Source: Propionivibrio sp.
GTDB taxonomy: Bacteria; Pseudomonadota; Gammaproteobacteria; Burkholderiales; Rhodocyclaceae
DNA: 39,874 bases
Assembly (NCBI RefSeq): GCF_029255185.1
Contig: NZ_JAPUVO010000096.1
Span: forward strand, 1-39,874
Direction of reading: 5' to 3'
The position numbers and the translations under genes were made by a program. Under the pieces are notes generated by a model. It did no database searches. It was not told the DNA's origin and saw only the letters and a list, made by a program, of their open reading frames with translations. Positions 19,191 through 39,734 of the stretch are shown here, in pieces. How positions within the stretch are numbered: the first letter of the stretch is position 1; the number at the start of each line of letters is the position of its first letter.

Positions 19191-19609
19191 TCAGAGTTTT
19201 TCAATCGCTGCCGTTGGTAGCCACAAGGTCAGCGGCGAATCCGGTAGCCGCTCGAATTCGTAACGTTCATACCATCCTCGGGCCTGTTCATCCTTGGCAT
19301 CTACGATGACGCAAATCATCCCGATCTCGGCAGAAAGGCGCAAGCAACGTTGCAGAGTATCTGCCAGGAGTAGTTCACCGAGTCCTTGCGAATGCCAGAC
19401 ATGGCCAAACTGTAGAAGCCAAATATTTCTGCGCCGTCGGCGGCGACGTAGGTCCGACTGACATTGGCTCCGGCGTGCTGGCGAGCAAACCTGCGCAAAT
19501 AGTCGTTAAGTGTATCGACACCGTAGGAAAAGGCACGACGATCATGGGCCGGTGCCAGAGGTTCAATACTTCCGGAGAAAACGGGAATCAATGCTAGCTT
19601 TGGTGCCAA
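19191..19609 (-). pseudogene. GNAT acetyltransferase toxin (TacT-like), internally deleted and frameshifted
   Basis: The 5' part reads IPVFSGSIEPLAPAHDRRAFSYG through EIFGFYSLAMSG, the start of a GNAT toxin. The frame then continues out of register and stops at 19316. A different frame restores the family's 3' part: acetyl-CoA loop HSQGLGELLLADTL, GMICVIVDAKDEQARGWYERYEFERLP, then SPLTLWLP and a stop at 19191. Compared with usual toxins of about 165 residues, some 25-35 codons around beta-strands 3-4 are missing and the register is lost. The start is TTG 19609, or TTG 19591, overlapping the antitoxin's 3' end. Probably inactive. Confidence 0.8.
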
Positions 19610-19869
19610 TCACGATGACGCTTGATGGCGGCGGACAGCATCGGCCTCGGCTTCTCCGCATTGTCCAGCGCTTTGGCAAAGGCACTCCAGTCTCGTGATG
19701 TCAGCGTGATCATTTCTCTTTCTGAGAGAATCTTCTTGGCGCGCTCCTGGGCCGTTCCAAGAAGAAAGGCACTGACCGACATACCGACAGTGGAGGCGGC
19801 ACGGACAATCAGTTCTTTGATTTCCGGTGATGTGCGCAAGTCAATGCGCTCGCGTGTGGCGACCGACAT
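19594..19869 (-). CDS. DUF1778 ribbon-helix-helix antitoxin (TacA-like)
   Basis: Antitoxin of 91 residues. The N-terminal RERIDLRTSPEIKELIVRAA is the ribbon-helix-helix DNA-binding part, followed by MSVSAFLLGTAQERAKKIL and the C-terminal toxin-neutralising segment ITLTSRDWSAFAKALDN. ATG 19869 is preferred because AGAGG lies 8 nt upstream; ATG 19875 is only 2 nt from it. A much longer open frame upstream (to 20106) lacks family similarity. It overlaps the broken toxin by 16 nt, the standard operon order. The antitoxin appears intact. Confidence 0.85.
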   Translation of the reverse strand: MSVATRERIDLRTSPEIKELIVRAASTVGMSVSAFLLGTAQERAKKILSEREMITLTSRDWSAFAKALDNAEKPRPMLSAAIKRHRDWHQS

Positions 19870-20105
19870 AGTCATTACCTCTGTACGGAAAAATTCCGGA
19901 TCAATGTACGGCGCGCTCAGACGAGAGGCAATAGTTTTGTACAAGAAGGGACCGATTAATGAAGCCTTGCAGTCGCTTGGGCTGAAACGGGAGATTGTCA
20001 CGATCGTCGTGGGCTTTTCGACAGCGCTGGCTTTAGCCCGTGCTTCCGTGTTAACGGTGTCGCCTTTCCGTAGAAATCTGGCACCGGGGCGGAGGCCGCC
20101 GGCCA

Positions 20106-20633
20106 TCAGCGGTGGTGACGATCTCCTCCACCATTCGCGGGCGCCCGGCCTGCTTCCTGACGACGTTCGGCGCGGTCAGCATGAAAGGTTTGTCGATCCT
20201 GTTTGACCTCTTGGCGATCGTGATGATGCTCTGCCCGATCCGCACTTAGTTTGCGTTGGTCCTGACGAACTGTGGCGTTGTCTTGCCGTAGGGCTTGCCG
20301 GTCTCTGGCGACCGCACCAGCATTGCCATTTCGTCTGTCGGTCCGCAAGGCATTCAGATCCTGCCGACGCTGGGTCTCGGCCTGATTTAGTGCTCTTCTA
20401 TCCTGAGTCAACTGCCGATTATCTTGACGCAAGTCAGCACGATCACGGGCAATATCACGCCGATCTTGGCGAATGTCACGGTTGTCCTGTCGGAGTTGCT
20501 GATTATTTGGTGTCCCGATTGAAGGCGCACTCACGGGCGGTGTTGCTGCCAGATCAGGATTCGTTGACTGAGCGAAAAGCGGAGTAGCAAAGGCGCCGCA
20601 AACGGCAAGAGCGATAAGCGTATTACGGATCAT
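20106..20633 (-). CDS. Secreted heptad-repeat protein rich in Arg, Gln and Asp
   Basis: Protein of 175 residues with a signal peptide (IRNTLIALAVCGAFATPLFAQ, cleavage near residue 22). Residues about 46-160 are near-regular heptads of the form (L/I/V)-x-x-D-R/N-x-x, such as LRQDNRD, IRQDRRD, IARDRAD, LRQDNRQ and LTQDRRA. These predict a long charged helix or coiled coil in the periplasm. AGGAG lies 6 nt before the ATG. The MITE lies 44 bp upstream, so it probably carries or disrupts the promoter. Function unknown; I recognise no named family. Confidence 0.75.
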   Translation of the reverse strand: MIRNTLIALAVCGAFATPLFAQSTNPDLAATPPVSAPSIGTPNNQQLRQDNRDIRQDRRDIARDRADLRQDNRQLTQDRRALNQAETQRRQDLNALRTDRRNGNAGAVARDRQALRQDNATVRQDQRKLSADRAEHHHDRQEVKQDRQTFHADRAERRQEAGRAPANGGGDRHHR

Positions 20634-36575: not shown

Positions 36576-36857
36576 GAATGTTGATCCCTAAAAATCTGAT
36601 GGGTTAATCGAAAAGGCGTGATTCTACAGACTTCACTCGGCCAACGCAAGCGGCATTTTCTGTAGGTGCAAATGCTGATTGTCTATGCCTACGCCAAGCT
36701 GCATAATTAGGTGGCGCTCCGGGAACAAAATTCCGCTTGATCAAGTCGTATAGCTGTTCGCTTCCTGGCGCGTCTCTTAAAACGAAGACGGCGGAAAGCT
36801 GGTGTCATGCACGACGCAGCGGTTCGCCATTTCGCCTAACCGGACAGCAGAGGCATC

Positions 36858-39176
36858 ATGTATATTCCGCGCCCAGGGCTTTTGCCCACATTCCTTCGCG
36901 AGCTCTTTTCGCCGCGTACGCTGCAACGCGAGCCGGAGTCTTCGCTGGTCATGGAGGATAGTGACGAGGTCAAGGCCTATGTCGAAGGCGGGCAGAGCAA
37001 CGCGTTGGCGGCAACCTATCTGTTCCTCAATTCGCACGCGAGTCAGGTCTTGCACGGCTGTCGGAGCGTGGTCGACCTCGGGTGCGGACCGGCGACTCTG
37101 CTTTGCCAGATCGCCGCGGCCAATCCATCGATTGCTTTTGTTGGAGTGGATTTGTCCGCGACGATGATTGCCGCCGGCGAAGAAAACATCAGGCAATTCG
37201 GGGTAACGAATGTTTCCTTGATGCAGGGCGACATCACCAGACTCGAATCAATCGCTGACCAAAGCTTCGACGGCGTAATGACATCGTTTGCCCTGCATCA
37301 CCTGCCGAGCTACGGTCACCTGGAAGCTTGTTTCAATGAAATGTCCCGCATCCTGGCGCCCGGGGGCCGGGTCTTCATCGACGATTTCACGCGCCTGAAG
37401 AGTATCAAATCGGTCATCAGCATGGCCTACTTTAACTCCGAGGACGATCCCTACCTCTTCACTCTCGATAAAGAACGGTCGATGCGCGCGGCTTTCACTT
37501 TCGACGAGTTAAAGTCACTGGCGCACAAAGCATTCCCCGAAAATATCGAAGTCTTTGCTACGTTCAAAGTGCCGCTCCTTACGATCATTCGCACTCGGCC
37601 GGGGAACCGGGCGCCGGCTTCGCTGGAGGAATATTTTCAAAGGGCGCGTACGCAGTTGCCGGAACAATACCGTCATAACCTGGACGATTTGCGCTTCTTC
37701 TTTTACCTTAATGGCATGAGCAATGATTTGTTCGGGACCTTCGTTCCGCTGTACGGCCAGATGGCCAAGCTGCGGATGATGGATTTTTCAACATTGCCGG
37801 TTCTGCATCAACTGCACTGTTCGCATTTGCGGCGGCTTGGATCGGTAATGAAGATGATGGCCAAGGCGTCTTTCGCCTATTCGAACTATCGTCTAGCCGA
37901 TTTATACACCCCTCAGGCGCACGAAAAGCATAGGGAAGTATACGCCAGGAAACTCGCCGACTGTTTTGTCAGCGAGCTTGGCGCGCTGAAAGGCCCACTG
38001 ATGAAATTCGGACAGATCATCAGCTATCTTCCGGGCGATGCGCCGCCGGAAATTTATAAGGCTTTATCCACCTTGCAAAGCCGCTCTGCGCCCTATGAAA
38101 GCGCGCATATCCGGAATGTTGTCGAACAGGAATTGCGTCAGCCGATCGACAAGATTTTCAAGGAATGGCATGACACACCGATTGCCGCCGCCAGCATCAG
38201 TCAGTTGCATCTGGCACGGCTGCATAATGATCGGCTGGTGATCGTCAAGGTGCGTTACCCGAAGATTCTGCGCGCCGTGAAAACTGATTTCAGCATCCTG
38301 CGCTTGTTTTCTCCCGTCCTCAAACGCCATTGGGGGTTGCAGAACATTGGAGAGTTGATTGATGAACTGGAAGATCTGATCACATCAGAATGCGACTTCA
38401 TCAAGGCCGCGAACTTTCAGGAGGAGTTCCGTCAGATATTTAGCGACGATCCACAGATTCTTATCCCGCAGGTGTATACCGATTACAGCACTGCCGCCGT
38501 GTTAACCATGGATTATGTCGAGGGCCAGAGTTACGAGGAGTTCAAGAATTCGTCGACGCAGGAACAGAAGAACAAGGCCGGAGAAATCATTTGGCGAATG
38601 GCCGCCGTCGCGATCAATCGTTATGGGATCTATAACGCCGACCCGCACCCAGGAAATTATCTATTTGTGAAGGACAAAGTCGCCTTTGTGGACTTTGGCT
38701 TTACCCGCCGATTCTCGACGGTATTCATTGATCTCTGGAAACAGCAATCGCTTGCGGGATGCGCGGGCGACTACGAACGAGTTGTCGAAATCAATCGCCA
38801 CATGGGATACGAGTTCCCTGGAAAGAAGTTCGATCACCGGATCATGTACGATATTTATCGCGATATCATCTATCAGTCCTGGCGGTTTGATCGGACTTTC
38901 CGTTTTGACAAGCCGTTCGTGCACGCGGAGCAAATGGCGCTAATTCAGCTGTGTCAGTCGGCGAAGCGTACATTGCGCATGCCCAGAGAATTTGTCGCTA
39001 TCTTGCGTCTGTTGTGGGGCCAACATGCCTTATTGGCGGATCTCAATGCAGAAGCCAATTGGCACCGTATCGTCTTCCCGCTGCTCGAGGAAGCTTCGGA
39101 CCCCACTTTATTCGATGCGAGCAAGCGACAAAAGGCTTTGGCCACCGTCGGACTGGAAAAGGAGCGACATGCTTAG
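36858..39176 (+). CDS. Class I SAM methyltransferase fused to ABC1/UbiB-family atypical kinase
   Basis: One frame of 772 residues. Residues about 60-190 are a class I methyltransferase: VVDLGCGPATLL (71-82), acidic FVGVDLS, FDGVMTSFALHHLPS and LAPGGRVFIDDF. A 150-residue linker follows. From about 350 to 750 is an ABC1/UbiB domain with every hallmark: K383-F-G-Q, Ala-rich loop AAAS (443-446), lysine K464 in VIVKVRYP, DPHPGN (595-600) and DFG (612-614). Spacings match known ABC1 kinases, so it looks catalytically competent. UbiB-type proteins support quinone or lipid handling; the target here is unknown. AGAGG lies 4 nt before the ATG. It is not the housekeeping ubiB, which sits with ubiE/ubiJ elsewhere. 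Confidence 0.88.
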   Translation: MYIPRPGLLPTFLRELFSPRTLQREPESSLVMEDSDEVKAYVEGGQSNALAATYLFLNSHASQVLHGCRSVVDLGCGPATLLCQIAAANPSIAFVGVDLSATMIAAGEENIRQFGVTNVSLMQGDITRLESIADQSFDGVMTSFALHHLPSYGHLEACFNEMSRILAPGGRVFIDDFTRLKSIKSVISMAYFNSEDDPYLFTLDKERSMRAAFTFDELKSLAHKAFPENIEVFATFKVPLLTIIRTRPGNRAPASLEEYFQRARTQLPEQYRHNLDDLRFFFYLNGMSNDLFGTFVPLYGQMAKLRMMDFSTLPVLHQLHCSHLRRLGSVMKMMAKASFAYSNYRLADLYTPQAHEKHREVYARKLADCFVSELGALKGPLMKFGQIISYLPGDAPPEIYKALSTLQSRSAPYESAHIRNVVEQELRQPIDKIFKEWHDTPIAAASISQLHLARLHNDRLVIVKVRYPKILRAVKTDFSILRLFSPVLKRHWGLQNIGELIDELEDLITSECDFIKAANFQEEFRQIFSDDPQILIPQVYTDYSTAAVLTMDYVEGQSYEEFKNSSTQEQKNKAGEIIWRMAAVAINRYGIYNADPHPGNYLFVKDKVAFVDFGFTRRFSTVFIDLWKQQSLAGCAGDYERVVEINRHMGYEFPGKKFDHRIMYDIYRDIIYQSWRFDRTFRFDKPFVHAEQMALIQLCQSAKRTLRMPREFVAILRLLWGQHALLADLNAEANWHRIVFPLLEEASDPTLFDASKRQKALATVGLEKERHA

Positions 39177-39204: not shown

Positions 39205-39734
39205 TCAGGCGCATTCAGCGTCCTGGCTTCGCAATGCGAATATCATCATCATGTGGTCCCGCTTTTGCGCAGACATGAAGTATCCGAAGAAAAGATGGAA
39301 AAACAGGCTCGGATGCCTTAAGAAAAGTCCTGCGCGTGGCGGCTCGTAGCCCGCATCGAGATCGTTTCCGCCATACTTCATAAGTGGCTCGAACAGGCGC
39401 CGCGCGGTTCCTGGAAGCCAAGAGTCCATATACCAGCGATTATAGACACCGACCTGTTCAAGCCTATGCTTTCGGGATAAATTCGCCAGCGCTTGCTGCG
39501 AAAGAATATGGACGTGGTAAGGCATGTGGAGCGCATGCAGATACTCTTCAGCATCGGCTAGCACAATACCTTCCGCATTCGGCGTTTCGATACAGAGCCG
39601 ACCGCGAGGATTGAGCAAGGAGATGAGCCGCGCCAGGAACTCCTCGGGGTTTTCGTCATGCTCGATGACATCGAGGCTGACTACGAAATCGTACTTGACT
39701 TCGAGGACGCCGGTCGACTTGAATCGGTCCACGT
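39205..39734 (-). pseudogene. SAM-dependent methyltransferase, 5' end removed by IS insertion
   Basis: The remaining frame of about 176 residues starts directly at the IS left end. It keeps the methyltransferase middle (YDFVVSLDVIEHDENPEEFLARL, LLNPRGRLCIETPNAEG) and C-terminal part with a hydrophobic FFHLFFGYFM. The N-terminal motif I is missing, about 60-80 residues short of the usual length. A GTG at 39732 could start a truncated product, but it could not bind SAM normally. It is convergent with the methyltransferase-ABC1 gene (28 nt apart). Confidence 0.8.

Follow-up and report, generated by a model that had tools for sequence, protein, structure and literature searches.

The stretch analysed here (the window) is the whole of contig NZ_JAPUVO010000096.1 from Propionivibrio sp. 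(C96; 39,874 nucleotides, in an assembly of 141 contigs and 3.26 Mb). Near its end lies a single open reading frame (ORF) of 772 codons, which joins a methyltransferase to an ABC1 domain, the atypical kinase module of the UbiB/COQ8 family. ORF reading and Pfam both place the two domains in one frame, as an earlier reading made from the letters alone (the sequence-only reading) had claimed, and each motif that it named is present (Table 1). The first half is a class I S-adenosylmethionine methyltransferase, with a Pfam Methyltransf_31 core (E 8e-21, 74.6 bits against a cut-off of 27) and a DLGCG motif I. The second half matches PF03109 (ABC1) at E 3e-53 (180.8 bits, gathering cut-off 22.9) and carries the KxGQ, alanine-rich loop, catalytic lysine, DPHxxN and DFG features of that superfamily.

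Residues 3–293 align at 47% identity with a stand-alone methyltransferase from the same genus (G006), which stops at the joint; the closest stand-alone methyltransferase in our tree set (G904) reaches 50%. ABC1 homologues begin to align at residue 302–303, with a matched stretch of 302–746. Since the alignments of both halves meet at the joint, the protein appears to be two complete parts joined in frame at a domain border, and on its letters we take the fusion to be real in the assembly. The sequence-only reading had flagged a possible frame error in the region of residues 200–350. That possibility is rejected: the stand-alone methyltransferase and the ABC1 homologues align up to the joint from either side, and no frame change is seen. 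The G+C content at third codon positions is 0.69 in the methyltransferase half and 0.56 in the ABC1 half.

Table 1 Positions of the fusion gene, its parts, two neighbouring genes and the two parallel fusions
Feature	Position	Strand	Basis
Methyltransferase–ABC1 fusion, complete gene, 772 residues (protein P0001)	36858..39176	+	ORF and Pfam
Putative ribosome-binding-site-like AGAGG, ATG 4 bases downstream	36849..36853	+	sequence inspection
Methyltransferase half, residues 1–294; counterpart of a complete unfused protein in relatives (identity 47% to G006, 50% to G904)	36858..37739	+	alignment, tree
Class I methyltransferase core, residues 70–181; motif I DLGCG at residue 73	37065..37400	+	Pfam
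ABC1 half, residues 295–772; from residue 303, 37–38% identity to the C48 and C57 ABC1 halves	37740..39173	+	alignment, tree
ABC1 atypical kinase domain, residues 406–645	38073..38792	+	Pfam
KFGQ motif, residues 383–386	38004..38015	+	motif/alignment
AAAS nucleotide loop, residues 443–446	38184..38195	+	motif
Catalytic lysine 464 (VKVRYP)	38247..38249	+	motif/alignment
Residue 517, Ala; Glu in 119/119 other ABC1 proteins and in both paralogous fusions	38406..38408	+	alignment
DPHPGN catalytic loop, residues 595–600	38640..38657	+	motif/alignment
DFG motif, residues 612–614	38691..38699	+	motif/alignment
Methyltransferase, N-terminally truncated	39205..39732	-	
Protein with TacA1-like antitoxin domain	19594..20106	-	
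Ligase–ABC1 fusion (AMP-binding ligase and ABC1), 1077 residues, C48	L009:1983-5216	-	Pfam
Glycosyltransferase–ligase–ABC1 fusion, 1473 residues, C57	L010:14239-18660	-	Pfam

The ABC1 domain lacks an invariant glutamate

The sequence-only reading had called the kinase complete and its motifs intact, a description that proves too generous. The fusion retains 14 of 16 positions that are invariant among 33 other ABC1 proteins, and has lost G458 (to Asp) and E517 (to Ala). In a wider set the first of these positions is Gly in 116 of 119 other proteins; the second is Glu in every one, and alignments to Protein Data Bank (PDB) entries show Glu in COQ8A and COQ8B also. This glutamate is, we assume, the partner of the catalytic lysine in COQ8A, so its loss possibly impairs hydrolysis of adenosine triphosphate (ATP). 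Judged from its residues, the window copy may be a weak ATPase or none at all; binding of ATP or lipid could persist while hydrolysis is inefficient.

Scores against narrower models set the protein apart from the named members of both families. Its ABC1 domain falls short of the UbiB equivalog models TIGR01982 and NF003404 (175.6 against 487.55, 132.6 against 667) and of MABP-1 (NF050082; 133.9 against 800). The methyltransferase half passes the broad UbiE/COQ5 model PF01209 (49 bits against 20.1, profile positions 49–166 of 233) and misses the NCBI UbiE/MenG models (NF001244, 54.7 against 216; TIGR01934, 49.9 against 158.35). Pfam gives no Pkinase match for the protein at E 0.01, so it does not carry a eukaryotic kinase of the WbdD type.

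Three fusions of one ABC1 clade in a single genome

A PF03109 search of this genome returned eight matches, of which the top four are full ABC1 proteins. Beside the window protein there is a canonical UbiB on contig C91, above both UbiB cut-offs (818 against 667; 553 against 487.55), and the window protein is accordingly rejected as the genome's UbiB. Two further fusions, on C48 and C57, join ABC1 domains to a ligase and to a glycosyltransferase plus ligase. The three fusion domains group as a single clade (support 100/100) in a tree built from 79 ABC1 sequences (75 of 118 loci and four proteins of this genome), and the C91 UbiB sits apart in the other main group. The clade's nearest neighbour is a stand-alone ABC1 protein of Myxococcales origin (92/84, short of the support mark of the tool), beyond which come myxobacterial and actinobacterial proteins. 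A view of the window protein as a lone curiosity is rejected, the same ABC1 clade being fused twice more in the genome.

Both paralogues keep the Gly and the Glu that the window copy has lost, and the C48 protein also gives a weak Pkinase match, under cut-off. At its start the C48 fusion gene overlaps by 31 bases a methyltransferase gene whose product is 34% identical to the window methyltransferase; the window thus repeats the C48 partnership in one chain, without the ligase. The C57 frame comes within about 100 bases of its contig end, so its start is unsure; the G+C content of its ABC1 part is 0.52, against 0.56 and 0.58 in its other parts. The C57 gene adjoins two chromate-transporter genes and a NAD-glutamate dehydrogenase gene.

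No second methyltransferase–ABC1 fusion among sampled genomes

The sequence-only reading had let its proposal hang on a two-domain homologue in another genome, and this check went against the fusion: none was found in scans of relatives, phylum, order, family, genus, plasmids and phages. No protein matched both halves of P0001 among 58 other relatives or in a phylum-wide set of 397 other genomes, in which all listed outside matches begin at residue 324 or later, and of 289 plasmid and 28 phage records with a match, 0 covered 80% of it. A pattern scan of the contig collection returned 26 pattern stretches, none a relative; among the best 80 loci of an ABC1-alignment scan only L063 scored close, and no second fusion appeared. 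With the ABC1 profile this genome scores 827–857 bits, and in the other members of the order (398 genomes) the next best score is 206. These samples overlap, and at most two candidates per genome (phylum and ligase scans) or four (order and family scans) were scored, so weaker copies may be missed; in 19 other order genomes with ABC1 matches the frames span 441–732 residues, and extra domains were not looked for in them. The titles and abstracts of the papers listed yielded no ABC1–methyltransferase or ABC1–ligase fusion, in a search with thin coverage of subscription journals.

As far as sequence comparison reaches, then, the protein puts known families together in a new way; it has been seen in one genome only and is so far without a second witness. 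We do not treat the absence of a two-domain homologue as fatal, because the ABC1 clade is fused twice more here and both halves have full-length unfused homologues.

Homologues of the fusion partners share a gene set in relatives

Of 149 other genomes of the family, 13 have a relative of the window methyltransferase that scores above 250 bits, and two have weaker ones (those of G006 and G013 came from a separate search of 58 relatives). Ligases like those of C48 and C57, but unfused, were found in 10 of 198 other family genomes (461–503 bits, followed by a gap to 272), in a scan from whose list the unfused ligase of this genome was missing. All ten ligase loci contain a thioester reductase, eight a WbuX-like amidotransferase, seven FtsX/LolC-E-like permeases, six the exosortase-associated acyltransferase TIGR03694, and two each ThiF, a glycosyltransferase related to that of C57, and a methyltransferase (of the window's clade in G422, of the type found on C29 of this genome in G812). 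A pattern scan placed a PEP-CTERM-like C terminus near the ligase in seven of the ten, after two matches judged spurious (G861, G812) had been left out. These counts include two near-identical loci (G849 and G927), and they come from searches at E 1e-15 with reference proteins drawn partly from the same loci. Genes in relatives are longest-ORF picks named from Pfam and NCBIfam, the TIGR03694 matches lying above the NCBI cut-offs and the WbuX, thioester-reductase and LolC/E matches below them.

The methyltransferase tree groups the window protein in a nine-row clade (97/95) with seven stand-alone members; the inner order is unresolved and the C48 row forms a long branch. In the 13–20 kb fetched around these seven, at least one gene of the set (ThiF, FtsX/LolC-E-like, ligase, reductase or acyltransferase) lies near five; a sixth (G904) has a PEP-CTERM protein only. 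The same surroundings of ten other stand-alone methyltransferases of the family hold no gene of the set in any case (Fisher's test about 0.003, computed by hand and with kinship among genomes ignored). Across these neighbourhoods, a single gene set in relatives thus includes homologues of each of the three catalytic partners, most loosely in the case of the glycosyltransferase, and the methyltransferase of the window fusion is homologous to a member of this PEP-CTERM/exosortase-associated set.

The recurrent set (ligase, thioester reductase, WbuX-like amidotransferase, FtsX/LolC-E-like permeases, acyltransferase and PEP-CTERM protein) stands at L186 and L217–L225, and literature searches found no report on it or on MABP-1. 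At G968 (L217:7749-12966) a ligase, a reductase and a glycosyltransferase adjoin as separate-gene relatives of the C57 partners. A stand-alone methyltransferase of the other clade, in G889 (L195:5430-12459), lies amid ketosynthase and short-chain reductase genes, a setting reminiscent of an aryl-polyene cluster.

This genome has unfused members of the set as well. C94 encodes an unfused ligase, a thioester reductase (51% identical to that of G422) and a permease; C53 a WbuX-like protein (72% to that of G812), a permease and a third protein whose TIGR03694 score falls far under cut-off; and C29 a second methyltransferase, 51–52% identical to that of G812. The C94 ligase (end of L231), the C53 WbuX-like gene (start of L232) and the C29 methyltransferase (end of L037) are each no more than about 215 bases away from a contig end; the three contigs may therefore be parts of one cluster split in assembly. 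With an unfused set present, the three fusions are extra copies; their product may be a variant one, or they may serve a single step at the membrane. Exosortase dependence in this genome is rejected, an exosortase search at E 0.001 having found none (its control was positive in one genome); a PEP-CTERM search gave no match, either here or in its controls.

Genes around the fusion

The fusion does not lie inside a PEP-CTERM/exosortase-type cluster in its own genome; its neighbours are rpsT and arg genes. Among the 20 ORFs scanned between 17984 and 39732 there is no ubi gene, which agrees with the sequence-only reading, and the second methyltransferase that it saw alongside, and took to be IS-broken, is there: the N-terminal part is missing, the match covers positions 79–157 of 164 in the Methyltransf_23 profile, and the contig end (39874) lies 142 bases beyond. 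The TacA1-like protein is listed in Table 1.

Proposed substrate presentation and competing explanations

We tentatively favour a reading, possible rather than probable, in which enzymes of an acyl-lipid pathway carry a tethered UbiB-type module that presents or activates a membrane-bound substrate. The ABC1 domain would bind ATP together with an acyl or lipid intermediate embedded in the membrane. It would present that substrate to the methyltransferase on the same chain, or activate the enzyme, in the way that has been proposed for COQ8 and its COQ partner enzymes. The acyl-adenylating ligase of C48 and the glycosyltransferase–ligase of C57 would be served in the same manner, and the three fusions would share a pathway. 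Precedent comes from the available part of PMC8346625, where the ATPase of Coq8 is possibly coupled to extraction of hydrophobic precursors, and from the available part of PMC7615680, where COQ enzyme product rises about five-fold with COQ8B and ATP.

Several results weigh against substrate presentation. Its main weaknesses are the unfused set and the lost glutamate: with unfused ligase, reductase, WbuX-like and permease genes present the fusions may serve another product, and because E517 is gone our confidence is lower. No clear membrane helix is seen in the fusion (best 19-residue hydropathy 1.52, against 2.62 in the canonical UbiB), and no exosortase was found in this genome at E 0.001 (a control was positive in one genome). 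The ABC1 clade was met in no other genome searched: the best other score is 165 bits in 27 other members of the genus, and 394 other genomes of the family gave no match at E 1e-60. The glycosyltransferase is the loosest link to the set, present at two loci, with eight more genomes having a match outside the examined loci. In the available part of PMC7615680 none of the single COQ enzymes tested, COQ3 included, is boosted by COQ8B, and COQ3 is phosphorylated. The three fusion genes, finally, lie on three different contigs.

The last point also tells against the next explanation, in which the ABC1 domains dock on one another or on a shared partner to assemble the enzymes, or the intact paralogues act as protein kinases on them; we regard this as somewhat doubtful, though a serious contender. 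One ABC1 clade on three enzymes is what a shared docking part would lead one to expect, and such a part could tolerate loss of E517. The kinase variant draws on COQ3, which we take to be a methyltransferase. Its phosphorylation by COQ8B, the ten-fold rise in COQ8B ATPase with the COQ3:COQ6 pair, and the authors' hypothesis that COQ8 organises a metabolon all stand in the part of PMC7615680 available. Against this explanation, the COQ8 fold is said to exclude larger protein substrates from the active site in the corresponding part of PMC8346625. The methyltransferase–ABC1 fusion itself fits presentation and scaffold alike. We lean towards presentation on the ground that three lipid-type activities carry the same module.

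A chance fusion, an assembly error or a copy going out of use seems improbable, and the lost glutamate raises its odds. In its favour, the residue is gone in the window copy and kept in C48 and C57, the fusion is known from a single genome, the halves differ in third-position G+C, and the gene has both the contig end and a truncated methyltransferase close to it. Against this stand the in-frame joint at a domain border, a frame open throughout behind a ribosome-binding-site-like sequence, 14 of 16 invariant positions, and two parallel fusions on other contigs.

Quite improbable is a sequence of phosphorylation and methylation, in which the kinase would act on a lipid or lipid-linked sugar and the methyltransferase would cap the phosphate. 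WbdD does this on O antigen with a methyltransferase and a kinase domain, as described in the accessible portion of PMC3482155, and one ABC1 paralogue (C57) is fused to a glycosyltransferase. The same portion describes the WbdD kinase as eukaryotic, not ABC1; phosphorylated coenzyme Q intermediates were not detected with COQ8B in the available part of PMC7615680; E517 is lost in the window domain; and the other two fusions have no methyltransferase in the same chain. Least probable of all, and very unlikely, is methylation of a quinone or its precursor: UbiB and UbiE families do work in quinone pathways and the methyltransferase passes the Pfam UbiE/COQ5 cut-off, but the genome has a separate canonical UbiB, the NCBI UbiB and UbiE cut-offs are missed, and the context in relatives is one of acyl-ligase, reductase, acyltransferase, ThiF and permease genes. 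Of the lipid or quinone role offered by the sequence-only reading, the general link to lipid chemistry is supported and the quinone target is not.

A broader formulation of substrate presentation, in which we place little confidence, is that in this lineage the UbiB-type module is a general add-on for lipid enzymes. One ABC1 clade would sit covalently on a methyltransferase, an acyl-adenylating enzyme and a glycosyltransferase–ligase of one pathway, each self-contained and drawing its substrate from the membrane, as a covalent counterpart of the COQ8–COQ partnership outside quinone pathways; the window copy would have kept substrate handling while losing one invariant residue. That the same ABC1 clade is fused three times, each time to relatives of a single gene set, points to a role for UbiB-type modules beyond quinone biology. 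How UbiB/COQ8 proteins use ATP is debated, with lipid extraction, protein phosphorylation and metabolon assembly as the models. A fusion fixes the ABC1 partner, so one chain and one measurable methyl transfer could separate them, and the window copy without the invariant residue, beside two copies with it, is a natural control.

Comparison with known systems

The closest known system is UbiB/COQ8 (ABC1, ADCK). By sequence the fusion's ABC1 domain resembles 5yjz and 7cy2 (ABC1 family), 9tvk (COQ8B) and 4ped (COQ8A), with E from 1e-30 to 2e-22, and it likewise has KxGQ, AAAS, Lys 464, Glu 511, DPHPGN and DFG. It differs in standing behind a methyltransferase, in scoring under the UbiB and MABP-1 cut-offs, in belonging to a separate clade and in the loss of Glu 517; the genome's own UbiB has a strong C-terminal hydrophobic helix that the fusion does not. 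The stand-alone methyltransferase clade (G006, G904, G422 and others) supplies full-length homologues of the methyltransferase half, without the ABC1 half.

WbdD of the E. coli O9a antigen is likewise a methyltransferase and a kinase-fold domain in one chain. On the description in the accessible portion of PMC3482155, which is the sole basis of this comparison, it differs in its eukaryotic-type kinase, coiled-coil tail and polyprenol-linked glycan substrate. ABC1 fusions have been published before: the terms 'methyltransferase' and 'AMP-binding' do not occur in the main text of PMC1262709, by term search, and the part of that source available gives RIO1–ABC1 in Thermoplasma acidophilum and Usp–ABC1 in Nitrosomonas europaea. 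Both join ABC1 to another domain, as the protein described here does, with different partners.

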